From: Bolinopsis microptera
Lineage: Eukaryota; Ctenophora; Tentaculata; Lobata; Bolinopsidae
NCBI RefSeq assembly: GCF_026151205.1
Contig: NC_087081.1
Location: 16,108,837-16,172,836 of the forward strand
DNA length: 64,000 nt
Direction of reading: 5' to 3'
Shown: positions 25,601 through 55,800 of the stretch, in pieces
Numbering within the stretch: the stretch's first letter is position 1
How the letters are laid out: each line of letters begins with the position of its first letter
Program-made: the position numbers and the translations under genes
Notes under the pieces: generated by a model
What the model saw: the letters and a program-made list of their open reading frames with translations, nothing else
What the model was told of the DNA's origin: nothing
Database searches by the model: none

Positions 25601-28600
25601 ATAGAGTTCATAAAAGATCAGTAAATCCAAAGTGTCAAATTTTAAAAAGAGCTCCTGATGCGAATCTCCATTTCCTAGGATAACGCTGATGCTTGGACGT
25701 TGATCGGAAACCTCCACATTTCAAAACAAGAATGGGGCCCAGGCCAGAAGAAGTTTGAAAGGATTATTAAGACGACCAATGATAAAGATTCTTACTCTAT
25801 CCTCGCCATAGGTTAGTCACTTATCTGCAGATAAGTCAAATATGGGTATTTAACAGGGACGCTGATGTTACTTTCGAAGTTAGGTGCTTACTAAATAGTA
25901 AATGAATATTCATTTTACTACTATAGTAGTGTGCAAAAAGGGGGCTGGAATAGTAACTGTTCATGTTGAGTGTTATTGCATTAAGATAATAAGCCCTAAC
26001 CCTGAGGGTATACGTTAGTGTGAACTTGAGTGGTGTACCCAAATTACAATTCTGTGTTGTTCAGGTAATGTGTGGCTGCAGATGCTTTACCAGCCAACCC
26101 GGGACAGGGACAAGGAGCAAAAGTACCAGGAGCGGGCCCTGGCCTTCTTTAAACAGGTCAACTTACACTTTATCTTATAATTAATTAGCTAATTCATTAG
26201 TTAATTAATTTAATAATTCATTGATTAGTTTATTGATTTTATAATTGATTTGTTAATCGGTTTTAAAAGGATGTATGAAGTTTCCTGACATGTGGGCATA
26301 CATTGTAATTTATGTTGCCAAATTCCAAGAACTTTGGTACGTCCTGCAGAAGTTATAAAAAACGTAAAAAGAAATTTAAAAACTGAAACTGGTGCTGATA
26401 ATTACCCTTCTGTACAGGTGCTACGACAGGATCCAAGGAACATGTACGCGGCTAACGGTATTGGCTGTGTGCTTGCTGTCAAGGGACACATTCGGGAGGC
26501 GCGGGACGTCTTTGCACAGGTGCCATATCTCAAGAAATATTACTTTAGAAGCTCAGTAGCTCGGTATCCTAAGTTGACATGAATTGATCATTTTTCAGTC
26601 GGCGCGTTAAACTAAGCATGAAAATACAATTAATTATTATTATTAATTATTTAGGTACGAGAAGCTACAGCGGAAATGCCGGACGTGTGGATTAACCTGG
26701 CCCACATCTACATTGAACAGAAACAATACGTGTCTGCCATACAGGTTCTTATAGTCAATTTTAATGTTTAAGTTATATATAATAAATATAAAAGTCATAT
26801 TAAAGTTTATCTGGTCACGTTATCTCAGTTCTCATAGCGGTTCACTCTTAGCGGTAATAATATGTACAATTCATCTAACTGTTCACTCTCAGCGATAATA
26901 TTATGTAAAATTCATCAAACTGTTCATTCTCAGCGGTAATATGTACAATTCATCGAACTGTTCACTTTCAGCGGTAATAAACAATTCATCTAACTGTTCA
27001 CTTTCGTTTTTACACGATTAAAAGTTTATAAGCCTGAATTTAACAGTTGAATTAAACTACAATTTACAACTGCTTTCCATGTACAAGTAAAGCGCCTTTT
27101 CTCTCGAATCTATCTATTACTGGTGGTTAAGTGCCGGCTAGGTTCTCCGTGATTGTATGAAACCAGGTCACCGAAGAATAGAAAAAGAAGCTCGAAAGGC
27201 CTTAGACGAAGGAAGTGTCGTGGTACTAGTGGATGTGGGAGAAGAAATTCCACTTGAAGCAATAGCAGTGTTAAACAAAGGGCTAGGTTTTGTACCAACC
27301 CCAAAGGTTGACACGGAGGAGGCTCGTTTGGACATGCGCTTAACAATAAACAGAATCGTAACTGCCTCAACAAGAAGCCTCAACAGCTCACCTACAACAT
27401 CATGTGAGGACCTATCAACGCTTGATTTGGAACAGACCGCCCCAACTGGACTACCTCCACAACTATCAAGGAAGTATTACGGTAGAAAGCCCCCAAGTGA
27501 GGACCAATCCATCAATGAGATTACAAACACCATGGCAGCGGACTTAGATCAGCAACTCATTAGAGGACCTAAAACTAATCTACAGCCTAAAAACCTCAAC
27601 AAGATGGAGTCCCGTGGCCTCAAATGGTTAGAAAGAATGATCAAACATGAAAAACTTGCAATAGTTGCAGCTGACAAAGGTGGAGCCGTGTTACTAGTGG
27701 ACCCAGCTATGCTAAAGCGAAGAACACAGGAAAAGCTCGACAACCCCCTATTGTATAAAAAGCTCGCTAAAGACCCTACGCAAGACCTACACCAGGAACT
27801 ATTTGATTTATGGATCGAGGGAAAAAAGAAAAACTTTGTTACACCAAAAGAAGCTAAAGACATCATGGGTATTACCAACAATCTAAACATTGATGGTACA
27901 GTTACTAACAACAAGAGTACTTCTTCCCACTTCAAACCTGGTAAAGCTTATTTCTACCCCACCCTAAAGATCCACAAACTTCAAAAGGAAGACCTTAAAC
28001 CAGGAGTCGAACCCCCCTTCAGGCTCATCACGGCACTCCAGGATGGAATCACAAAACGCAGTGATGTTTTCCTCGCTAGCCAATACCTGAAGGATCTTGA
28101 AAAAGATTTCTGCTCTGACCTTTTGACTGATAGCACTGATGCCCTTCAATGGTTGGATTTCGTGGATAGTGAACATTCCCCAGTACAGAAGAAAGGCTTC
28201 AGATCATTTACCTACGACTTTAAGGCCCTCTATGATTCTCTAACACCACCCCTCGTCATAGAGGCCCTGAATTCCGCTATGTCATCATGCAGAGAAGATT
28301 GGTCTGAAGATTTCTGCAAATGGCTCACCAAATTGGTGGAATTGAGCCTTCGATCCTCTGCTGGGGTGTTCGATCAAAATTGGTTCATACAGCTCATCGG
28401 TATCCCTACGGGTGGATCACTATGTGTCCAAATCGCAAACATAGCAGTCTACTACCTAATGAACAAATGTGTTTATAGTAACCCAGAGCTCATGAATAAG
28501 ATCGTATCAGCCAGGCGTTACATTGACGACGGAGCAGGTTTGTTTGAGGGAACTACAGATGAGTTCAAAATTTGGATTGCAGATGTTAACAAAGCACTCC

Positions 28601-31600
28601 TCTCCCATGGCCTAATCATTGATGAATACCAAATAGAAGATCCTGGTAAATACGTATCTTTCCTTGACATAATGTTCACCTTCGATTCCTTAGGATCCCT
28701 CCAAACGGATTTGTTCATAAAACCAACAGACTCCCGTTCATATCTACATTTTAAAAGCTCCCACCCTAACCATATCTATTCCGGTATCGTGTACTCTCAA
28801 TGCCTTAGACTCAGAAGGATCATCAACTGCCAAGAACGCCTGGAAGGACATCTCAACAACCTCAAAAAAGCCTTCCTTGCCGCATGTTACCCTAGAAAAA
28901 TGATTGAGAACATCAGTAATAAGGTCCTCAACACAGCAAGATCACTGTCACGCAAAGTTCAGGCTCCGGATGACCAGACATCATTACATCTTCCAATCAG
29001 GGTCATATCTACTTATGGTAGTGATGATGATCTGGTGTCTGTGACTAAGAAGTATGAAGAACACCTCTCAAGAACGAGGAGTTTCAGTGAAAGTGACACT
29101 GCTGAAACATCCCAAGAGACCTCCTCAACATCCGCCATGCCTAGGAAGACAATTTTCAGTTACACAAAGAAAACAGGGCCAAGCCTAAAATCTCGCCTCG
29201 TCAAATTGAAAGAACTTGCTTTAGGAGCTCAACATGGCCCAACCAGCAAATGCAATGTGCCAAGATGCAAATGTTGTGAACTTGTCAAAGGCACCCGTGA
29301 ATTCAAAGTGAACGGCAAGAAGGTTAAAGCTTCCCCTGGAAACTGCCAGAGCTCAATGAAACTAATAAATCAATGAAACTAATAAATCAATGTTTTAGCT
29401 CATTTTACAAAGTCAAATATTTAAAACAATTAAAATTGTATAGTGCTCAATTTGTAAATGACTAGTTGATCTTTGCTATTGGAAGTTTGTCAAGGACTGG
29501 CAGCTAGCGGGGCAAGGAATGCACGGGCTTAGGGGCTTTTGTGCACACCAGAACACTAGCTCGGTAGATTTTTGGAAACTAGAAGGACTGAAAACTAAAA
29601 TTGTTTTTGATGGAGGCTGAGGCATGTTTTTGAGAGGGACGGTATAATAGCTTGTGGTAACAACTGGCCTTTACTTTAATAGGATGAAGTTTTAGTTTTA
29701 GGACAGGAAGAAGGCATTAAGAAGATTTGCTCTTTGTTTACAAGGCAGAATATAAGCAATGTTGGTTATAATATGTATCAATATCTAGATCTTCGTTTAT
29801 CAATTTTCACTAAATGGGTTTAAAAATTTTAATAGGGAGGGAAATTCATCAACTTTATTAAGTACCTATCAAAAATAAATCTTATATCAATGTAATATAT
29901 TAAAAATCATAATCCTAAGTCTAATAATAAATCTGTTAAAAACACTTTCTCACTACACTGCGCTCACACACGTTAGTAAGACAAAGGAAAATGCACACCC
30001 AGCTAATTTTCAATTTCAAGATAATCATTTTGGATGTGTGGACCCTAGGGTAGACTTAATGTCAAAATTTAGATTAGAGCATTCGAAATCTTTGTTTGTC
30101 CAATCAAGATCAGCATGGTTATGCTGGTTGACGAGCAGTGATTGCTTCATCCTAGACTTCAGGCAGGCCACACTTAGACAGTAGTCACGTATACCAAGCT
30201 TAGGCACAATTACGTTCCAAGTACGAGTCGTTCTGCTATTGAAGTTGTCAGGGGGGTCTGCTTGGCTTAGTATAAGGGTGGGTTTCCTACTTGAGCAGGT
30301 GAAATTTTCATGGAGGGAAATCGGAGCACGGAATTTCATGATTTTATAGAGCTCAAGGAAACAATGGTAAGTGTACAGGTTTTGGACGGCAAGTATTCCG
30401 TGTTCCTTGAACAAAGGTTTCGTGTGCTCTTTCAAGAAAAATTTTTTGTTCAGATTTTGGTTGCCAAACGGTCGAGCACGAGCACAGGTCTTAAATTTAT
30501 CTAGGTATGCCTCCCTGTCGCCAAACAGTACCCTGAGACAATATTTTTGTGCTTTGAATACAGAACTTATACGAGTTTTGGCTGCCCCACCCCAAACCGT
30601 GATACAATAGGAGAGGTGTGATTCAAATAGAGTGTAATACAACTGGCGGTGTAAGAAATCTGGGAGGGAGCAGCGTAGGCGGCAGAGAGTTGATGTTGCA
30701 TGGCTGAGAGAACGCCTAAGTGATTTTATATGTTCTTCCCAGGTTAGCTTTTCATCGATGACGACTCCCAGAAACTTAGCAGATGCAACTTGTTTTATTG
30801 GAAAGTTATCAATGGTTAGAGTATATTCAGAATTATTGTCAGTCTGGGAGGACGATGCTGGTTTAAAGTGAATGAAACAGCATTTAGACATGTTGACATG
30901 GAGTTTGTTTGCTCGCATGTAGGAATATAAACTAGCTAAAAGAGAATTACCACGCATGTATGCCTCCTTTTTAGATTTCCCAGTCACAAATACATTGGTG
31001 TCATCAGCGAAGGTGACAAATGATCCCAAACTGGAGCTGTTGGCGATATCATTAATATATAGGAGAAATAAGAGAGGTCCAAGAATCGAACCCTGAGGGA
31101 CTCCAAACTGTATTTTCAAGGCGTCAGATTTCTCACCAACAACTTCAGTATATTGTGATCTATTTGTTAAGTAACTTTTTATAAGATCATTTGCCACCCC
31201 ACGTATCCCATAGCCCTGTAATTTGACAAGTAATGTACCATGATCTATTGTATCAAAAGCTTTGCTAAGGTCTATGAATATGCCTAAGACATGATGCTTA
31301 AGTTTTAGAGATTCAGTTATAAGGTTTACTGAGTGATTAACTGCTACAGCATCAACAGCTACAACATCATTTATCTGTTCCAATGTAGTGTCTGTGGAAA
31401 GGCTTACGTCGGTCGCACAACTCGATCTCTACGGGTTAGGACTGGAGAACATAGGGTCAAATATTATAAACTTTTAAATGGTGATAAGGTAGATGAAACA
31501 AGTGATGAATATAGTTTGGGTTTACATTTGTTGGATCATGGTTTTAGACAAAGGGAAGATTTTAACAAAATTTTTAATGTGTCAATTATTGATAATTCTA

Positions 31601-34600
31601 GTCCTAAAACTTTGGATGTCCGTGAACATAAATATATTCAACTACTCAAGACTTTAAAACCTTTGGGAATTAACACTATAAATCCTTTTGGCCTTCCATT
31701 ACTCCTAACATCTTAATTTTAACTTTATAACCGTTTTAAGAGTGTTCAGATTTTTAAAGGAATTTTGGGTTTTACTAACTTTTTACAATTTCTAGGGCTT
31801 ATGTCACTGAAGATGACGCCTTGCAACATGTTTGACGATAGCCTGTAGATTGATAGTTTGATCTCAGTATTTACAACAATTCATCTAGTTTGATTGATTC
31901 AAAGGGAAACAAATTCCTCTGAAACCAGGTCACATGATGTGATGCTGGTTTCTGAGGGGCTTTATATAGATCTCACGGGTCAACTATTGTTCCCTGAACA
32001 CTTTGTGCGTGTAAAATGAAAAATATGAGATATGTTGCGAGTGTACTTGATAACTCACAGCTCTCAGGTAAGCAGCTATTGTACGAACATTGATTACTTT
32101 GACAAGCATGTTACTAGTTGATACAGTTAAAATTAGTACATTTTGTGGTGTATTTTTAGTGTCAGTATTCATTGTGAGACTTTGCGTAATGTCAGCTAAA
32201 AGTAGAAGACTTGAAGATATGTACTGTTTTTAGCTGGTAGATTGGAATATTATATAGTCTATATATATTATGAAAGGTGGTTCTTAGAGCTAATTTTACT
32301 AATTTTTAACTAATTTCACAACTAAAATTAAATACATTTATTGAGAATTATGTAATATATGTATGTGAGAAATTGTCATCAGTACAAACGGACTTTGTAA
32401 AGGTTAACAAATCCAATAACTCTATCGCTATTGGTTTTCCTGATTCAGAGGCAAGGCAAAATGCTACTCAGTTGATTGATGAAGATTCTTCAAAGGGATA
32501 TACTTTGCGTGAAGCAAAGAAGATGTATCCAAAGTTAACAATAGAGAACGTCCATAGGGACGATGCCTTCCGCAGACTTACAGCAGACGATGATGATAAA
32601 CTAAGAGATAAGTGCAGATCGCTACTGAAACCGTCCATCTTGGCCAAAAATGACGGAGTACGCAAGCTTGTGGATGCTGGTCACAAAGGGGGGGATGCAA
32701 CGTCAATTAATGTCAGTATTCCATAAAAACCCCAAACTGACATTGACATTAATTGACATTAATTGACATTAATTGACATTAATTGACATTAATTGACATT
32801 AATTGACATTAATTGACATTCATTTGTCTTGAAATTTGAGATTATCATTATTCGATAAATATTCAAGATATTCACGTCTATGTAAGTTAGACCGGTTCAA
32901 AAAAACAAAATGTCCTTGAATAATTATGAGTATGTTCTTATCTGTTGATCCTTAGGTTCAAAGACCACCAACAAAAATTTCAGCTTCAAACTCTTCCATC
33001 TTCGGTCCCCACCGGCCACGCCCATATTTTATTGGTTTCTTATACAGGTAAAATATCTAGAATCGGCTTTTTTAGTATGAAGGAGTAATGCTAGCTGTTT
33101 AAGATTCGTTATTCAAATATAAATGTCATGAAGGCATTTCGTTTAATGTGGGTTTTAAGTTCTGATGATGTTGAGAACTATGCCCTTGGATGGCCACGCC
33201 CATTTAAAGGATGAGGGGACCTTAGAAAAAGTTTTTTTCTCGTGCAAATCCTTTTATTACATTAATCGTATAAACCACTTTAGTGAAATCCGCAAAGTTG
33301 TATTTCATTCGCGCGCCGAGATATCCAGCCAAAACAATTTGAACCTGTGACGTCAATTATGTGAGTTGCTCTGATCCGCGCATATAGAAATACAGGTAAA
33401 ATGAGCGTGCGGGCCGACTAAATTACTAATTAAGAATAAATTAACAATTTACGATACTAACGAGCCTATAACCAATGGAGAGGAGACTTTTTATGACCGG
33501 TTGAAAAAAGAATTATCACCCTACGATAACCATGAGCCGAGATACACCTGGAATAAGATTGAAGTCACACAGAAAGGCATGTAAATTATGTATATTTATA
33601 GCTCCCAACGTAACACCTAGCAACTCCCTGTTTCGTACCACAGTTGATATATCAACATGTCATATCAACACAACACGGTCCTAATAAAAATGGACCGGGT
33701 AGGTATGAAATGCATTTCTTCATTCCAGTTGGACAAGCACCAAGCACCAAGCTTTTAAGTTCTAACTCACTATGTGACACTACTTCTAACGTAAGCAAGA
33801 TTTGCAACTATTACACCAAGCAATATTATACCAAGCATAGCAGACGAACACATCCACATTCGTTACGCTTTACACTCAAGTCACAGCAAACTAAAACGGT
33901 AAATTATAAATGAGTTTACAACTAAAGGCCGGTACACGCGCAGTGTCAAACCGCACGTGCGTACTCAGATAGGACTAGAGGCGCCAAGGGCCAGCTAGTA
34001 AAATGTCTTCTACTACATCATACATTCTTTTTAATTGTGTCCATATCGGGTTTCAAACAAGTCAAAACAAAATAGCAGTTTGTGGTTTAGTTAGCGGATG
34101 CTACTTATCTTAGCTATTTATAAATAGAAATACCTACTACAACTACAAGAAAGCCTTTCTGAGTTACATTTAACTATTATTATTAAAGAGAATTATTCGT
34201 AACTTAGACTAATTCAGTGCAACCAAAGATACCGCTCTCGCAAACGCCAAAGGTAACACGACGTAATTAAAACAGAACAGGACAAAATGTTGACACGAGC
34301 AAAGAGTGCGCGCGCACGTTGGTCTTAACACATAAGTGACGTCACAGCCCAAAATTGCTATCAGCCAATAGGAGCGCGGCGTGATATTGCACGAATTATC
34401 GATTTCACAGTCCGGCGTATTTTTTGATTCTACACACTTTCACAGGACTTAAACGCGAATATTTGGAAGTAAATTCTAAGGTCCCCTCATCCTTTAAGAA
34501 AATTAAATTTCGGAAAACCGTATTATTTTAGCTTTATTGTTTAATGATCTGAATTTTTTCACATTTCACATTTCCATATGTGATAGTAGTGAATAAATTG

Positions 34601-43600: not shown

Positions 43601-46600
43601 AAGACCTTCCAATCTGAGGTGTCCGGTCAACTCGTTCTTATCATTGCTGAAATGTAATTCCAGGATTGTCTTTACTTCATCAGCAACATTATTGAGTCTT
43701 ATTTGTAAAGGGGTCTGAGTCCAGGTTAGGTCTTGGAGGTTTGTGCGTCGAACAGGTATCCAACCTATAGGAGATTAATTGTGTGTTAATTGTTAAACAG
43801 TAAAACAAGTCAAGTAAACCCTTTTCAATACCACAGAATCTGGTTCAAAATTATTGTATAATTAGTATAATTAGTATAATTAGTATAATTAGTACAGGGT
43901 GGGCCAAAAGTCAGTACCCATACGTTGGCCTTAATAGCTCCGCCGTGTTTTATATTTGAGAGCTGTTGTTTTGCAGATGGCATACTGTACTTACTGGTTC
44001 GAGGATTCCGTCGTCAAAATTTGAAAATTCGAATATTTTAGACCACGCCCATTCAATATTAAAACCCCTATATTGTTTTCTCTGAACATGCTGAACGCCT
44101 AATTTTTTCAGAAACGGTAGATTATCAAATGTTGCATATGATCTGAAAACATGAGGCAAAACGGATTAGAAATGACGAAGTTATCAAGCATTTTCTGTAT
44201 CTCGTTAACAATATTGACTGGGTGATTATGTGACACCGTGACACGACACCTTAATTAGGCACCCTTAACAATTCCCATAATGTTTAACAGGGTAGTTAAG
44301 GGGGGGCACCTTATCACGTGATTAGGTAAACCAATCACCTGATCACACGTAATGAATAAACTCGTTATGCTTCATATCTCGGTCATCTGAGAAGCTACAG
44401 TTCTAATTCTTTCAGGACAAACGTAATTCGAATGGCCAAACACAATTCAATATCATTTAGCTTGATCCGACTATCCAAACTATCAAATAAATGTGAAAAT
44501 GAACCTCCATTTGAAAAAAATGAACGCGAATATTTTTCGAGTTGACAAATTCCTCGAACCAGTGGTGGTACTAAGTCATACCAGAAAGAAGTATTTAAAT
44601 TGGGCACTCGGTGACTGAGCTATAAAGGCCAACGTATGGGTACTGACTTTTGGCCCACCCTGTATAATTAGTATAATTAGTATAATTAGTAATACCAAAA
44701 GCGCAAGTTTGAAAACGCACAACATTGACAACATACCAGATTTTGGACGAAAGTAATCGGAGGTATCCAACGAATAACGCGCTATAATAGCCACTATGTT
44801 TCCTTCCCATAAAGACCTCCCATTTTTCCATGTGGAGTTCCACAAGGGGCACTCAGATATATCGTAATCTAAAACTTCCAACCCGTTGCACTCATATTTC
44901 ACCCCTTTTTCTGTTCGTGTGATTGTCCATATTTTCTCTTGCTCTGTAGGAAGCTCAACTGGAAATATTGTTGCATCTCCACAAGAACCTATCAAGTATT
45001 TAATCGGATTTGAGAAGAGCACTCGAACACTCCGTTGAGCTCCGTCCTCATTTTGCAGGAACACGGCGAGCCATTTGTTACTTCCTTTAGCAATGTTCGT
45101 TTTTATTTGCAGAGGTGTTGCTTCCAAATCAAAATTATAAGTTGTTCCTTTCTTGATTTCTAACCAATCTAATGAAATTAACAATGGTATTAATTAAATG
45201 ATTGTTTAACATCTTTATCTCTTGTCTTAAAAGGATTTAACAGCAACCACTTGGTAAACTAATAACAATTTTTGTTTCGCAATCTGGGCACATGTTTTTA
45301 AGCCAGCTAAGTGTCAAAATAATCGGTCTACAATATTGAAGTGAGAAGAAATATAAGAACCATCTTACCGCAGAAAGTGTTATCTTCGTTAACTGATGTT
45401 CCTTCAGCACATGGTATACATGAAGATGCTCCTTCATAACTGTAACTGTTATCAGGGCAAGGTGTACATTGTGACATTTCACCAGTCATGTATGTTCCAG
45501 CTTCACATGGTTCTGTTAATAAATACAGTTAGCTAAATCTTCAACCGAACATCAATTGTTACGATAATATAATAAAGAAAGGTTTTTCTGAAAATATATC
45601 CTTATTTTACAATTATACAAAAATTGTAAAATTTATTTATCAAATATAACAAACTAGAAACCCGCTAGTCGAAAGCTACAACTACAAATCCAAAGGGTAT
45701 AGAATCCTCTAAATCAAATAAAAATAGCATAGTACTCACTGACAAAGAAACAGGACCTGAAAGCGGTATACCAGCCACCATGCTCCGTGACACTAACAGT
45801 GTTCACCATGTAACATTTTCTAGTGGACATGTTAGCAGGACCAGTCACTACTGCCTGGCAATTCTGTTCTTTCTCACACCACGCAATACAGTCATCATCA
45901 TTGATTCTTGGTTTCTCAGCTATTATCGAAGATTCTGGAACCTTACCTAGATCAGGCTGCCAACAATCTGGAACGATTTAGTCGGTTTAAATGAAATATC
46001 ATGTTACAGAAATCTTTTAGAAGTATGATTATAATGATATATAATATAATCCATTTATAAACAAATTTATCGTTTAAACCAAGATCAAAACATCACACAA
46101 TATTATAAATTAAGAAGCCTATGTACCTTTGGCTGTAACGACAACCACTTCAGATACCGAGATAACTCCCTTAGCCTTCGTCAACATCACAACATCTCCA
46201 AACATATTGCAGACAATAGTGTAGATCTGATCTGTCTGCCTCAGTTTATAGCTGAGCTTTAGCAGTCCGCACAGTGTGACACTATCCTCTATCCCAACTG
46301 ACACATCCACATTGTTATGAGGATCCACACAGTCTTCTCTGAACTGTTCCTCGCTCTGTCCACAGTTTGAAGGAAACCAGTCCTTGTAGAACTGATAGTA
46401 GATAACCACCTGAGGAATTTGTTTCCTTTTGAATCAATCAAACTAGATGAATTGTTGTAAATACTGAGATCAAACTATCAATCTACAGGCTATCGTCAAA
46501 CATGTTGCAAGGCGTCATCTTCAGTGACATAAGCCCTCAAATTATTTGTTATATAGAAGTGTTGAAAGTATTAAAAGATAGATAACCACCTTGTTGATGA

Positions 46601-49600
46601 AGACTGGTGTATCAAATTCCAGTTTTAGCCAGCCTGCTCCATCGTTAGTTTCAGTGGCAGACATTGTGGCGATGTTCTGATCAGTAGCATAGCTACCCTC
46701 CTTATCATCCAGAGTTCTGCCTTGAGTTACTTTGGAGGGTACAACTTCTCCAGGTAATATCGCTCTAACTGAGGGGTTTCTGGTGTTATTCTCCAGGTAA
46801 TATCGCTCTAACTGAGGGTTTTGTAGTGTTATTCCCTAGCTCATGTGTTAGAAACCTTACACAGTTACTATGTCTCTATCATTATATTATGCTATATTGT
46901 CACGTGGTTTTGGAGAAACTATATTGTTTATATGGCATTTGGTTATTGGTAACATGATGCCTTTCAAAATCCTAGACAGCTCTTTTTCATAGAATAAATT
47001 CGTATTCACTACTCACTACTCACTACTCACTACTCACTACTCACTACTCACTACTCACTACTCACTACTCACTACTCACTACTCACTACTCACAACTCAC
47101 TACTCACTACTCACTACTCACTACTCACTACTCACTACTCACTACTCACTACTCACTAACCTAAATCAGAGTTAACACAGTTGTATCCTCCAATTGGGCA
47201 TCTAGTAAAAGCATTGTCTTTACAGTTGCGACTTTCGAACATTATCGGTCTGCACCCTGTTTCACATCCTGTGTTCTGCTTATTCGTTTTGCAGCAGTAT
47301 TCTCCACTTCTATAGACAAATGGGTAGTTGTCGGGGCAAGCTGAAATCAAAGTGTTTCCTAGTCTTTTTTAGTGTTATTTCATAATTTTGAAATTATCTC
47401 CCCATATATTTTAAAAATAATTAAAATCAATTTGAAACCAAAAATATTGAACTGTTATTATATTTTCTTGATTTCTGCTGTTAATGCACCAAATATTTCA
47501 AAGCTTTACCTCCAAACCCAAAGATCTCTATCTCGGCTATGGAGGGCGCATGTTGTCCCACCCCAGTCTTAGCTTGACCAGTCACCATCACCTGATCACC
47601 CACCACACCATCACAATCCAGTGTATATGTCTGAGCTGCTTCAGTGACTTCCGCTGCTACCTTTATCACGCCGCACTCTGTCACTTTCCCGGTTGCTGTC
47701 CTGACAACAGTTACCTGCGCGTTATCTAGCTGGGCTTGACATTCGGGACACTCATCTAAACGGTTTACTACCACTATCTTCGAGATAGCGTGAAGTTTGC
47801 CCAAGTTAAATTTTATCCAGGTTTCAACCCCTTCATTTGAGCTTTGTGGAACGTATACGGTAGTGATGTCGTTATCGTACGCACGCTCAGCTGTATAGTG
47901 CTTATTGTAAGGGGTAGTTGAGTCTGAGGACTGTATGTTGATTGTCTGACCTGAAATAAGATATGATGAGAAATGAGAAACCTATGATTAAAGGGATCAA
48001 ATTTTGGTTATTTCTGATATATCCTATATTCTAATTCAACCCCCATTACTTCAATAATAGTATCTACAATAAAGTGAATCCTCCTTCCTACAAAATATCA
48101 AATAAAAATCTGAGTTTTGATGGTTAAAAGTATATATTATTCTATTTAGTAAGTAAAACACGGCTAGAATTCGGAGATTTTCTTGATTTAGTCCTGTTTT
48201 TACTGATAACAATTGGAAATATAGTATTTAACTGAAATTACACCCCAGATGTACGAAAACTGTCTAAAGAAGTTCTACAGCTACCAGAACGTGGAGATCC
48301 TGTTGTACCTGGCTCGTGCTCACTTTGTGTGTGGCAAGTTGGAGGAGACTCGGCGCATTCTTCTTCAAGCCCGCCATATGGCTCCTCAGGTTTGACAACT
48401 CTTATTTTTGTATTTTAATATTTTATTTAACATTTTTTAGAAATTTATTTATTTATTTTTATTAAAAATTGAAAATATTTGTAATAACAAATAAAAAATG
48501 TAATCTGCCAGGTTGGAAAACTAGATTTTTGGGATGTTATTTTATAAGGAAAATAAAGGAGGATATTTTTATCGTGGGCTGCCACTTTTTATCATACATA
48601 GCCTGGATATGATTTTGACACGTGACACATGATTCAGATTAATTAATCAGACTACATGAACCTTCATACAATCCTTATCATATATATCATTATCTTCTCA
48701 TATCATTACAACATTACACTACACAGTACACCTGTACAACTTCCCCAGGATAATTTAATACTGTTCAACTTGTCGTACGTGTTACGTCATCTCGCTACAA
48801 ATACACTTCGTGACGAAAAGAGCGGGCTGGAGGATGTAGTGAGTGCCGTGAGGAATTTGGAGCTTGCGCAGCGCTTCTTCACTATGCTCAGGTAAATGGG
48901 GAACACGTGGGGAACACGTGGGGAGCACGTGGGGAACACGTGGGGAGCATGTGTGAGGCGTGGGGCCTACGTGCTCCCCACGTGTTTGGAGCTTGCGCAG
49001 CGCTTCTTCACCATGCTCAGGTAATTGGGAACTTTAGGTACTTTAATTGGGGGACTTTTAGCATACTTCTTGGGAAACATTGTCATAAAGTTGAGATGTT
49101 TTTTCGTTTTGCATATAGAACGATAAGGACCTCTATATTCAACAAGTACTACAGTAAAAACCCGATTTACCGCAAACACCGATTTACCGTAAACCCCGAT
49201 TCACCGCAAATCCCGTTTTACCGCGGCTTTTTCCTTTCTCCCAAACTCCGCGGTAAATCGCGGTATTACTGTACTACCCAAACAAAATACCAGATCTTTG
49301 CTTTAAAAATCATTTTAATTATAGTAAAGCAACAGAAAGACAGAAGTACGACATGAACCATGCCGGGGCGGAAGCGCGGCAGTGTACTGATCTGCTGTCC
49401 CAGGCGCAGTACCACGTGGCACGTGCACGTAAACTTGACGACGAACAGCGAGCTATCAGGTAATATCATATAATTAAATAGCTTAATGTCAAATAGTTTT
49501 TTGTACAAATTACCAGTATCATATAATTACTTGAACACTAGTACAAATCTATTACATTTATTGAGGATGATACAGAAGGAATGTATTTAATGTAGTTATT

Positions 49601-52600
49601 GAGGAGTCCTAAATCTCCTCATATCCTTAAATGGAGTTTTCTTTCTACCATATTATATGATTAAATAGCTTAATGTCAAATCTGTTTTGTTAATAGTGTC
49701 TCGGATTAAGTTTATTTATTTACGTCACATTACTAGCTATAAAAGGGTGTCCCAATTAATAACGATGTGATCACAATTGCAGAATGCAACAGGACAAGGC
49801 AAAGCAGGAGAGCGAGAACAAGAAAAGAGAAGTGCGGGAACGCCTGGAAAAAGAAAAAGAGGATAAGCACAAAGCAATGTTGGTACAGCGTGAAGAATTC
49901 CGTGAAAAAGCCAAGAACATTCTTATGTTTGCTGACGAACCTGAACCACCACGAGCTCCTAAAGGTAAATATTAATCCTTTTTTATGCTACGATTGCACG
50001 TGTTACTGTATTGGGTGTATTAGCTTTAAATATTGTTGCATTTTCCCAATTTTTGAACACCACGTTTCCGTAGAACGTCCAAATGTTCAGGAACCCCCCC
50101 CCCCCCCCCCCCCCCCCCTTGAAAATTTCAGAATATACACGTATTATGTAGCCAGAAATCGGAAGTATGCAGCAATAAATGTTGTCGTTATATAATACAT
50201 TGTAACGGTGTCTTATATCTCAGGACGAAGGAAGAAGGATGATGAACCACTATACAGCAGCGGAGAAGCTTCTTCAGATCCAGATAAGGATGGTTAGTCT
50301 ATCACCTGTTATAGTTAATAGTTTATCACGCGATCTTTTGAGAAATGTACAGTAAAACCCCGATTTACTGCGCCCCGATTTACTGTACATCTCGATTTAC
50401 TGCGGTTGTTTTTTTCCACTAAGTTTGAGTTTTACTGTACTAGCCAGAGACGTGGAATATTACATTCATTTCATTGATAATTTAATTTTGGGATGATCCT
50501 CTCCGAAATCAACCTCTTGGTAGTTGCCATTTTAAATTTAATTACAAAAAGAGCGCAGCCGTGCATTGTCGAATACTTTTTTGTTGATTCAGCGTTGTTA
50601 TATTCACTGGTTTGTAATTTGTAATGACTAATGGTATTAGTATTTAGAATAAACTGAATAATTTACCTTAGATGGGCTGAATGAGGAAGAGAAAGAAAAG
50701 AAAAAGAAAGATAAGGCAGAGAAAAAAGAGAAGAAGAAGCAGGCTCGAGCAGATAAGAAGAAAGCTAGAAAGGAGAGGGAACGAAAGAGAGTGAGTACAT
50801 AATATATCTTATATGAATTCATAACCTCAGCTAATCAGATATTATCAAAAACGTTATAATTTGATCAAATTCCTAAATTCATCATCTCTTTACCCCATCT
50901 GCATCATCCTTAACTGAATGCAATTAACTCTGATACTACAAACATACGTACCACTTATAAATTATAATATGTTTCAAGAACCCCCACCCCACCCTCCCAC
51001 CCCCCCCCCCCCCCCCCCCCCCCCCAAGTTGGAACTGATAATTACTTAATTATATAACACGGATGATCACGATATTGCAATAATACTTCAGCAACAACAC
51101 GAGAAAGAAGAAAAGTCCGGTAAATACACGAGCAAGGCGTTTATCTCCTCAGATTCTGACGGAGGTGAGGATGGTGACGATGCAGAACCGGTTGCTGTGG
51201 AGAACCAGTCACCGGTCAAGGCAGCTCCAATCAGCACGGGACTACTGGACAGTGATAGTAGCGATTTAGACGAGAGCCCTAGGAAGTGAGTTGATATTTA
51301 AGGAAAAAAAAACGTGATGATTATGTGAGGAAATAATCTTCATTTCAAGGGAAAAAAGTATTGATTTCCTTATTCAATCAGGATTGTTTGAACCTTTATT
51401 TTCAAGTTGTGAGTAAAAATTGCATTGACGTCTACAAAGATTTGATGAGTAACGTTTGACAACCAGGAAAGCAGCAAAGACCCGTAAACGCAAGCGCTTC
51501 TCTGATTCGGAAGATGACTCAGATGTACGTGACGAGATTGGAAAGGATGAGGAAGAGGAGGAGAAGAAGGAGACGAGCTTGACTAAGATTAGTGATATCA
51601 GTGAAGATGACGCTCCTCCTGCGGAAACTACCGTTGTAAAAGGTATTTTTGTTTGTTTGTTGCTTAGTGTTGTTAAATTCATAGTGAGGTCAATACAAAT
51701 GCATATAAACTAATAAATCATGCAAAACAAGTTGTGTTTCCAGTAAGTTAGTTAAAATCATTTACATATCTCTTTTTGATACCTGCCAAGCGGATAAGAC
51801 AAACCAAATAAATAAAATAATTCTCACTTTTTCCTCAGCTGTGAATAAGAACCCAATTATTGATGATTCAGACAGCGAAAATGATAAAGGTTAGAATGTT
51901 CACTTATTTCAATTATCCAGAATAAACTTTGTATATTATAGTTTTAGTAATTAGTATATTAAAAGTAAGTTAACTTTTAACCGCTCAACATACGTAGCAG
52001 TCAAAACGTTGAAAGCAAACTTCTAACTAAAAACACCAAATAAGAAAGCAAGTTGTAAGTCAGATCAAATGAATTATTCGACATAATCAAATTGTTGGCC
52101 TTATCTCAACATATAATAATACGTTATAGTACGTTTTATCTGATATCTGAGCTGTATTTCTGCAGATTTAGGAGGCGAAGGTCTGGAAACAGAAACAATG
52201 GAAAGCCAAGGTTTAGAAACAGAAACAATGGAAAGTCAAGGTTTAGAAACAGAAACAATGGAAAGTCAAGGTTTGGAAACAGAAACAATGGAAAGTCAAC
52301 CAGCGGAAGAAGAAACCAACATGCCAGTTTCTGAAACTGTATTCGAAGAAAAGCCGTCTGATGATGAAGAGGAGGAAGATGAGAAAAGTTCGGAGAAGAA
52401 GAAAGTTTCTTCCGACGACTCAGATAATCCGGGGCGGAAATCAAAGTCAGAAAAACGAAGAAAAGGCGACGAAAAGAAGAAATCAGACTCAAAGAAGAAG
52501 AAAAAGTTTGATTCTTCAGATTTAAGCTCTAATTCGGATGATGAAGCGTTGGTAGAGAAACGAAAATCGAAAAAGAAAAGCAAAACTTCGGAAGATAAGA

Positions 52601-52866: not shown

Positions 52867-55800
52867 AATCATGTGACATATTACATGTGACATATTACAT
52901 GTGACATATTACATGTGACATATCACATGTGACATATTACATGTGACATATTACATGTGACATATTACATGTGACATATCACATGTGACATATTACATGT
53001 GACATATTACATGTGACATATTACATGTGACATATCACATGTGACATATTACATGTGACATATTACATGTGACATTTTACATGTGACATATTACCTGTGA
53101 CATATTACATGTGACATATTACATGTGACATATTACATGTGAAATATTACATGTGACATATTACATGTGACATATTACATGTGACATATTACATGTGACA
53201 TATTACATGTGACATATTACATGTGACATATCACATGTGACATATTACATGTGACATATTACATGTGACATATTACATGTGACATATTACCTGTGACATA
53301 TTACATGTGACATATTAACATTTTATAACGATTTAATATGGACATTTTTGAAGCATGATGACAAATGGTTTATAATGTTTGTGGCAAATTTATAAGAATA
53401 ACTGTTGATGTTTTTTTAATCATAATCACTAGTAATATTATCTTATTGACCGACCTTCAGCTTTTGCCACAAATCAAACATGTTTAACTGAAAATTATAT
53501 CTTATTTTAAATCAAATTAATTCCCATTTACTGACTTAGTGTTCCACTGTTACCAAAAATTGTTTCGGCTTTCTTACATTTTGCCAGCTAAGTTAAAAAG
53601 ATGGTCATTCATATTTCATTTTCATTTTCTTCGTTGCAATTTTTGGGTTTTAAAAAAATGTCTGGCTAATCTTTCGGAGCATAACAATAACGTTATTTTA
53701 AACACGATCACCATAAATGATTACATTGCAGTAGGGCTATGCAATTCCTGTGTGGTAAGTGGTAACTGCTTTATTTGTTCTACATCGCATCTGTAGATCT
53801 GATTGCTTAGATTCATAGAATTACGGTTGCCAAGGCTCACAAAAGCCAAGAAGTGCTGATAGTTCAGCCGGTCGCTTCTAAAAGGTTGTGTTATTGTGGC
53901 GCGCCATGTATTTATTTTGATAAAATTTGAAATTCAAAATCCGTTTCGCGCGTCTCTCTGTATGTTCAGCTATTAAAAAGTACGTAAGTACGTGCGTGCT
54001 TGTGGCTTTAGCTGGTACTGACATCTTGTATAGGCCTGTTTTCAAAACGAATTCACTGGCCACAAAAATCTTCCCTCACTACACAGCCTCCATTGTACTA
54101 GCGACAAGAGAAACGCCATTGTCGGACGTGAGTCGAGTGAGGACTCCTCAAACTACATTTAATATATATTCCTTCTGTAACATCCTCAATAAATATATTT
54201 AATTGTAGTTGTGGAAGTAGTTGAAAACGAACACTTCCTTTGATTGCCAGCTGATGTCACATGGGAAGTATTGGCAATACTCTAATAAACTGTATCTTAG
54301 AATTTCTCAAAATTACAGAAAAGATTTATAGCCCTAACCTGGATTGCAGATCGGTTTTTCGTCATATTCAAAGTCCTCAAAAAGATAAGTATTACAGGTG
54401 ACCCTGGTGTCTCCCTGTTGTTTGTAGCCTGGTGGACACGAGACTTCAAGTTCAGTGCCGTGGCTAACAGGCAGCGGCGTATCTGTCGTTACCCCGGGCC
54501 AGGTTACTGGGATTCGGGCACACTCTGAAATGATACAAATTATTATAAAGGAGCAGTTGCTTAAAACACTCTGGGAGAGATTGTGGTTAAATTTCCACGG
54601 TAAAATCACCGTTTGGTCAAATAAGGTTTGATGTGTTGCTTCCCATATTCTAGGAATTTTTTCTGAAATGGCACGATATTGTTTTTACCTATGCTCGATG
54701 AAGTTGCACAATTATTGTAACCTCACCTGTTGGCCTGTGTCTGAAAAGATCTGACGCATCATCTTGTTTATATTCTCCGTCATCATCTGACTTGAAAACT
54801 ATATGTGTAACTTCTCCAGCCCATCTGGCACATCTATCGCTACTGGAGTCTGAGTAGGTGAAATCCACGACACTTTCACCGTTGCACTTGATGGAGAATG
54901 CTGTTGAATAAAACTCGAAGGTCCAAACTCTAAGATTATTGGGGGCTGCTGGTAACGTGAATGTTGTTATATCATCGAAGCAATATGAATCTTTGAACCT
55001 AGGCCCTAGGAAATAGATACGAATTTTACTCTGAAATCCAGTAAATTTGAAGCGAACGTGAACAGTACTGTCCGTTCCGATTTCAGTGTCAGTTTTGATC
55101 TGCAGAGAAGTATCCGTGTTGAACTTGAAGGGTATATCAACATTCAAATTCTCTCTCGTTGCGGTCCAACCTGCGGGTTTTGGATGGTTCATTAATATGT
55201 GAGAAAGCAAGAGGTTAAATGCGGTTATGATAGGAGATCAAACTTACAAAGCCTAGAATAGTCAATGATTTTTCGAGCAGGGAATTTAAAGCCGGATTGT
55301 TGAATGTGTTTGTTGTTTGTTCCAAGAATAATATTAGAATTATCTTAATAATTTTACCGCGATGTTACCACTTTTTTCGAAAGTTAACAATTTTTCCTCA
55401 CAGAATGTATGTGATTTTGCTTCATCGAGACTCGGGTCATTATTACTCAGTATAATGTTACACTTGAATAGTAGTTGAAACCCGAATTCTAACCACACTA
55501 TTTGTTACAACGCACAATTAGTGTAACAATACATTACCCTAATTCTAATTCTAATTACCCGGACAGCATGTATCTGCTATGACGTCATCAAGACTTGCCA
55601 CACAGCAAATACCTGCCACAGTGGGCGGGGTCCGGTTCATATGGCGTGATGAAACTAATACCCTCGAGCAGATAGGGTGAGATATTGTTGAGAAAGTTAG
55701 AGATATTGTTGAGAAAATTAGAGATATTGTTGAGAAAATTAGAGATATTGTTGAGAAAATTAGAGATATCGTTGAGAAAATTAGAGATATTGTTGAGAAA

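Follow-up and report, generated by a model that had tools for sequence, protein, structure and literature searches.

The window, a 64,000-nucleotide stretch of Bolinopsis microptera DNA, carries on its minus strand a multi-domain discoidin-like gene. One domain of this gene matched the Pfam family PF22633 above its cut-off and the F5/8 type C family below it, while a second, related-looking domain matched no Pfam family when searched by itself. The 957-amino-acid gene model returned a single match in a protein search, in Mnemiopsis (37% identical over 24%). The exon that encodes the second domain is interrupted at 46590/46409 by a 167-bp insert (46578-46412, by sequence reading and recomputed by script) plus one copy of a 13-bp duplication. 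Over the presumed start of the interrupted exon lies an ~45-bp tandem duplication (46735-46835, minus strand; CCCTCAGTTAGAGCGATATTACCTGGAGAA occurs twice), and a 7-bp tandem array of the ACTCACT type (47007-47160) directly follows the donor of the preceding exon. The discoidin-like exons are adjoined, on the opposite strand, by exons of the C-terminal part of CTR9 (48225-49975, plus strand; approximately residues 699 to 900 of human CTR9). At 48858-49032 (plus strand), the end of a CTR9 exon occurs twice with its donor, as ...TTCACTATGCTCAG/GTAA and ...TTCACCATGCTCAG/GTAA (here and below, a slash marks a splice border or a junction).

A copy of a Penelope-like element lies on the plus strand (Table 1). 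Its two ORFs match both parts of P0069, in which a reverse transcriptase (RT) and a GIY-YIG endonuclease are joined within a single 948-amino-acid ORF; in the window copy, the RT part and the GIY-YIG end are ~2 kb apart, and the minus-strand ORF between them is presumably a LINE reverse transcriptase. The GIY-YIG part scored just below the Pfam cut-off. Searched by itself, the RT ORF matched no Pfam model, and it had no relative among solved structures; no Rfam family reached its gathering score between 25000 and 33000. A fragment of the Penelope tail is also found flanked by a fixed repeat, TCTTATCTATTATG, and carried inside another dispersed repeat (L010, L012-L015, L021, L023, L024, L027, L028, L031, L032, and L037).

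Table 1. Positions in the window of the Penelope-like copy, the interrupted exon, and the parts of the insert
Feature	Position	Strand	Remark
RT ORF of the Penelope-like copy	27157..29376	+	67% identical to P0069 over 98%
GIY-YIG end of the Penelope-like ORF	31333..31716	+	66% identical to the P0069 C terminus
Branch-site-like TACTAAC, pyrimidine tract, and TTTCTAG acceptor	31773..31795	+	In the Penelope-like copy
Penelope-like tail recurring in the insert	31796..31919	+	1 mismatch to the last 124 bp of the insert
Interrupted exon, downstream part	46125..46409	-	Genome match C10:16154961-16155254
Target duplication copy 2, AGGTGGTTATCTA	46399..46411	-	Acceptor CAG/ from here
Presumed new intron, 180 bp, GTGGTT...CCTCAG	46410..46589	-	In-frame stops if retained; splicing presumed
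Penelope-like 3' tail, 124 nt	46412..46535	-	First base directly follows the parent element's 3' splice site
Spliced leader, 41 nt	46536..46576	-	Differs at 1 base from the SL-RNA array leader
Two extra bases, TC, at the duplication/leader border	46577..46578	-	0-5 other bases in other copies
Target duplication copy 1, AGGTGGTTATCTA	46579..46591	-	Donor AAG/GT from here; direct reading and script
Interrupted exon, upstream part (second discoidin-like domain)	46590..46745	-	Genome match C10:16155408-16155581

Recomputation left unchanged the coordinates that had originally been given for the insert and the presumed intron, as well as the exact 13-bp duplication around the insert. The AGGT of the duplication lies at both splice borders, with the donor AAG/GT coming from copy 1 and the acceptor CAG/ from copy 2. 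As the original prediction had it, removal of the 180 bp yields a continuous 11-residue stretch in frame; reading through the segment adds 15 residues and then a stop. The insert had also been described as a Penelope 3' fragment whose last 126 bp match 31794-31919. This holds for the last 124 bp, which match 31796-31919 with one mismatch, but the two further bases (AG) agree because AG terminates both the leader and the splice site in the Penelope copy, and the first 41 bp are a spliced leader.

We searched the insert against the genome (264.65 Mb in 232 contigs, with C1 to C11 and C13 spanning 16.3 to 26.2 Mb). The Penelope match is beyond chance (best nonself E = 3.2e-78 among 40 scored of 908 candidates). 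With the window's own matches excluded, 15 of the scored matches cover nearly the full insert at 89 to 99% identity, and many others end where the Penelope part ends. Since near-full-length matches recur, the non-Penelope bases are part of a repeated unit; full units mostly share the same start base and have differing flanking repeats. The possibility that the head is the Penelope copy's own 5' end was ruled out, as the head matches once in the window, namely, at the insert itself. Around the insert, Rfam gave two weak matches alone, both far below their cut-offs, and there was no match in phage records.

Its sequence identifies the 41-base head as a spliced leader of ctenophore type, and tandem arrays of SL-RNA genes encode it. 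The 44-nt leader printed for Hormiphora californensis (PMC8527503) agrees with GAG plus the insert head at 35 of 44 bases. The strict Sm pattern ATTTTTG gave no matches in our search for SL-RNA genes, which were located via the GTAAG continuation of the leader (158 matches within 3 mismatches, the first 100 of which were used for the array layout). The leader followed by GTAAGATTAAGTTCC recurs in tandem with a period of 591 bp on C3 and ~858 bp on C5, and, among the matches listed, an array on C1 has a variant leader end. All four array units examined contain the exact 41-nt leader, from which the insert's leader differs by one base. Such units combine the features of SL-RNA genes: tandem copies, a leader/GTAAG border, an Sm-like run (ATCTTTTGG), and a strong 3' hairpin, recognized by eye and by folding. 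The fold of one unit was better than that of shuffled sequences (z = -2.82; 3 of 200 shuffles were equally good). An array on C5, with at least 21 units mostly 428 bp apart, encodes a second leader. Heads of this second type also lie in the window at 32326-32345 (plus strand) and 54185-54204 (minus strand), with 0 and 1 mismatches, respectively, each followed by other sequence. The leader end CTATATAACAAATAATTTGAG has 1179 exact occurrences in the genome, SL-RNA genes included. Its continuations, among the matches listed, are recurring but mutually unrelated, and the leader head likewise tops quite different, unrelated bodies.

The border between leader and tail coincides with a putative splice site. 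The sequence TACTAAC-TTTTTACAATTTCTAG/GG leads into the tail of the Penelope-like copy, and the TACTAAC...TTTCTAG motif had 18 matches among the fetched loci. For tail subfamily 1, the GAG of the leader abuts the tail exactly after that AG, so that TTTCTAG/GGCTTATG becomes TTTGAG/GGCTTATG; the junction thus coincides to the base with a 3' splice site in the RNA body. Genome-wide, we found 16 exact leader/tail junctions, the window's included, 7 with one tail subfamily and 9 with another. At L088, it is the second leader, identical over 43 of 43 nt to its SL-RNA array leader, that is joined at the same base, to a 124-nt tail identical to that of the window's Penelope copy. That one splice site is shared by three leader-tail pairings suggests trans-splicing. 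Flanking repeats could be measured in 15 of 18 given leader-tail copies (the 3' end was not found in two, and one was not parsed): they are exact and 10 to 16 bp long in 12 copies and shorter in 3. Target duplications of varying sequence are what a retroposed trans-spliced RNA would leave, and the insert looks like a DNA copy of such an RNA.

A search with the joined domain yielded 80 genome matches, of which 2 are the window halves and 7 stop short of the junction. The other 71, all paralogous, cross the junction in one frame (3 have a stop somewhere). Among 20 fetched paralogues, the codons continue across the junction in all, and AG/GT is present at the junction in 16. The original prediction had called for a comparison of the exon in relatives; in two close relatives from other assemblies, P0001 (75%) and P0002 (72%), it is uninterrupted at this site. 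With paralogues and both relatives reading through, the intron appears to have been gained, not lost. The gain also seems to be young, as had been proposed: the insert differs at 2 of 165 positions from the family consensus, which four copies (L002-L005) match exactly. Near identity to 31794-31919 is, however, common to many copies, and that copy need not be the source. The broader idea of intron creation at a proto-splice site stands with respect to the insertion at AGGT, its duplication, and the uninterrupted paralogues and relatives, but the source seems to have been a leader-plus-tail RNA rather than a plain element fragment.

AGGT is not a preferred target of the element. It occurs in 1 of 41 distinct 3' flanks among the fetched loci and after one exact terminus genome-wide, which rules out an introner family with an AGGT preference. 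A search for other copies of the 126-bp terminus that coincide with introns had been suggested; we did not encounter sequence-similar introns in many genes. For an element without this preference, chance alone would place one of its many insertions at AGGT. We surveyed the genome for AGGT located 6 to 15 bases before a leader, and the 24 matches represent 23 distinct sites, window included. All 22 other sites were fetched and scanned by script for a duplication within ~1.2 kb, and 9 were read by eye. A coding exon split with an exact AGGT-led duplication was found at 2 of the 23 sites, and the two bodies differ. Exact repeats of at least 10 bp are present at L120 (13 bp, in UTP20), L122 (12 bp), L125 (11 bp), and L124 (10 bp). 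The L122 repeat lacks AGGT and lies in a long ORF matching no Pfam family, those at L125 and L124 lie at the apparent donor of an existing intron, and the 9-bp repeats at L121, L132, and L135 may be due to chance. The remaining 15 sites had no duplication within ~1.2 kb, a range beyond which longer inserts would have escaped the scan. At L116, L124, L125, L130, L134, and L135, leader insertions lie a few bases past the donors of apparently existing introns; such positions are favored because the search pattern itself is AGGT before a leader.

The second split exon belongs to UTP20 (L120; C8:3066334-3066147, minus strand), where a 162-bp leader-headed insert is flanked by an exact 13-bp AGGT-led duplication, AGGTTAAGACACT. 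The interrupted exon matches human UTP20 with an E value of 5e-32, and the joined exon reads SLSELEVKTLLQYIADD, gap-free at the site against the human protein. If the insert is retained, a stop follows 12 codons past the donor. UTP20 is single copy, as the genome has no UTP20 match other than the two exon halves. The leader of the UTP20 insert is three bases short at its end and is followed by a body other than the Penelope tail; its source RNA must therefore differ from that of the window insert, and no clean trans-splice join is evident. As the search required AGGT, this case supports the outcome and not its frequency. Its presence in a single-copy gene nevertheless makes splicing of the window insert more likely.

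To gauge the splice sites, we scored them against 15 donors and 10 acceptors hand-picked at domain or CTR9 exon borders, with unclear ones dropped. The donor AAG/GTGGTT is weak: 3 of the 15 local donors score no better, and 8.7% of the GTs in the window reach its score. The acceptor, TTCCTCAG, is fair: it outscores 6 of 10 local acceptors, and a score this high is reached by 4.7% of the AGs in the window. A further AG lies 16 nt upstream of it. When leader-tail sites were rejoined with 1.5-kb flanks, the window copy gave 178 open codons, compared to 33 to 62 in all four others. This comparison drew on 10 rejoined copies of the 18, 5 of which provide no control because their flanks are too short to show a long frame. 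Given an element with no taste for AGGT, we read the motif as a survival filter, such that exonic insertions last if they are removable; the control behind this reading is a thin one, with four other copies.

We consider it likely that a leader-tagged RNA of the Penelope tail was retroposed into the exon and became a new intron, with trans-splicing, the copying machinery, and splicing all as predicted from the anatomy. A Penelope-like transcript would have been trans-spliced, placing a host leader on a 3' splice site that lies 124 nt from the end of the element, and the resulting short chimeric RNA would retain a tail that the element's reverse transcriptase can copy. The chimera would then have been inserted, in the sense orientation, into a coding exon of the discoidin-like gene, duplicating 13 bp that start with AGGT. 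The first AG/GT would serve as the donor and the second AGGT, together with the last C of the insert, as the acceptor CAG/. As removal of the 180 bp restores the old mRNA exactly, the insertion would be tolerated as a new intron.

A real and recent insertion could, however, be spliced inefficiently, in which case it would be a fixed or segregating allele that disrupts the gene and has AGGT at its border by chance. The weak donor and the near-chance share of AGGT-led flanks (1 of 41) would fit, and two differences from the consensus would leave little time for the rest of the gene to be lost. Yet the exon frames beside the insert are intact, they differ from P0001 in length by small multiples of three, and the same arrangement occurs in single-copy UTP20, where loss should be lethal, which suggests removal. 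A heterozygous allele would be compatible with both observations, and we regard the disrupting allele as unlikely overall. It is rather improbable, in our view, that head and tail form one ordinary SINE-like, nonautonomous element with a leader-like head that needs no trans-splicing for each insertion. Four mutually identical copies are what a single master would produce, but the leader occurs at the same splice site on two tail subfamilies, one copy has another leader, the same as the one that a different SL-RNA array encodes, and the same head precedes many unrelated bodies. At least three separate joinings would be needed, with which later copying from one joined master is compatible. That the insert landed inside an old, preexisting intron seems very improbable: leader insertions near the donors of apparently existing introns do occur (L116, L130, and L135), but the bases duplicated past the donor code for protein as part of the downstream exon, an element landing in an intron would have left those bases uncopied, and neither the paralogues nor the relatives have an intron at the site.

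SINE and Ds sequences acting as introns are known cases. In its anatomy, the window insert fits an introner, i.e., a mobile-element copy that serves as a spliceosomal intron. Introners create introns with target duplications and leave the mRNA unchanged after splicing; certain families, with Florenciella as a named example, derive both splice sites from the insertion site (PMC9860276; Gozashti et al. 2022), so this device is already known. The likeness lies in the presumed element-made intron, the target duplication, and the splice sites taken from the target. In the available text of PMC9860276, introners are read as mostly DNA transposons that recur in many genes, and neither "Penelope" nor "ctenophor" occurs there; the present insert, in contrast, would be a retroposon with a spliced-leader head, found in one gene with one related case. 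Compared to Penelope-like elements, it shares the 124-nt tail of a parent with RT and GIY-YIG parts like those of P0069 but has no coding part and has a host leader as its 5' end. Dinoflagellate retrogenes carry a trans-spliced leader that was copied back at the 5' end of a retroposed RNA (PMC6050394). The bodies described there are gene mRNAs, whereas here the body is a transposon tail within an exon, as a presumed intron. In Hydra, the host leader is added to RNAs of transposons (~30% of the Iso-Seq reads from TEs [PMC12220107]). This is leader addition at the RNA level, with no insertion or intron described in the text available, while we describe a genomic insert. The literature covered on introners, Penelope, and spliced leaders, including few subscription papers, reports no leader-tagged retroposon as an intron. 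Transposon-made introns with target-derived splice sites are thus known, and a leader-tagged retroposon as their source is apparently new.

It seems to us an evenly balanced question whether trans-splicing in this ctenophore supplies its genome with leader-tagged retroposons, of which those landing at AGGT in exons would serve as introns from the start, both splice sites being provided by the duplication. If true, trans-splicing and retroposition together would keep supplying an animal lineage with new introns. The origin of spliceosomal introns is a long-standing question, and the window case offers the donor, the duplication, and the empty site, and its anatomy points to a trans-spliced transposon tail as the RNA intermediate. 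The process could be tested within one genome, in which the 1179 exact leader ends are available. Hundreds of leader copies have been reported in ctenophore genomes (PMC8527503), part of which may be retroposed RNAs and not leader genes. We also observed oppositely oriented leader copies that share the same body and lie ~75 bp apart (for example, C1:7307491/7307570, C1:16284597/16284675, and C7:15867964/15868038).
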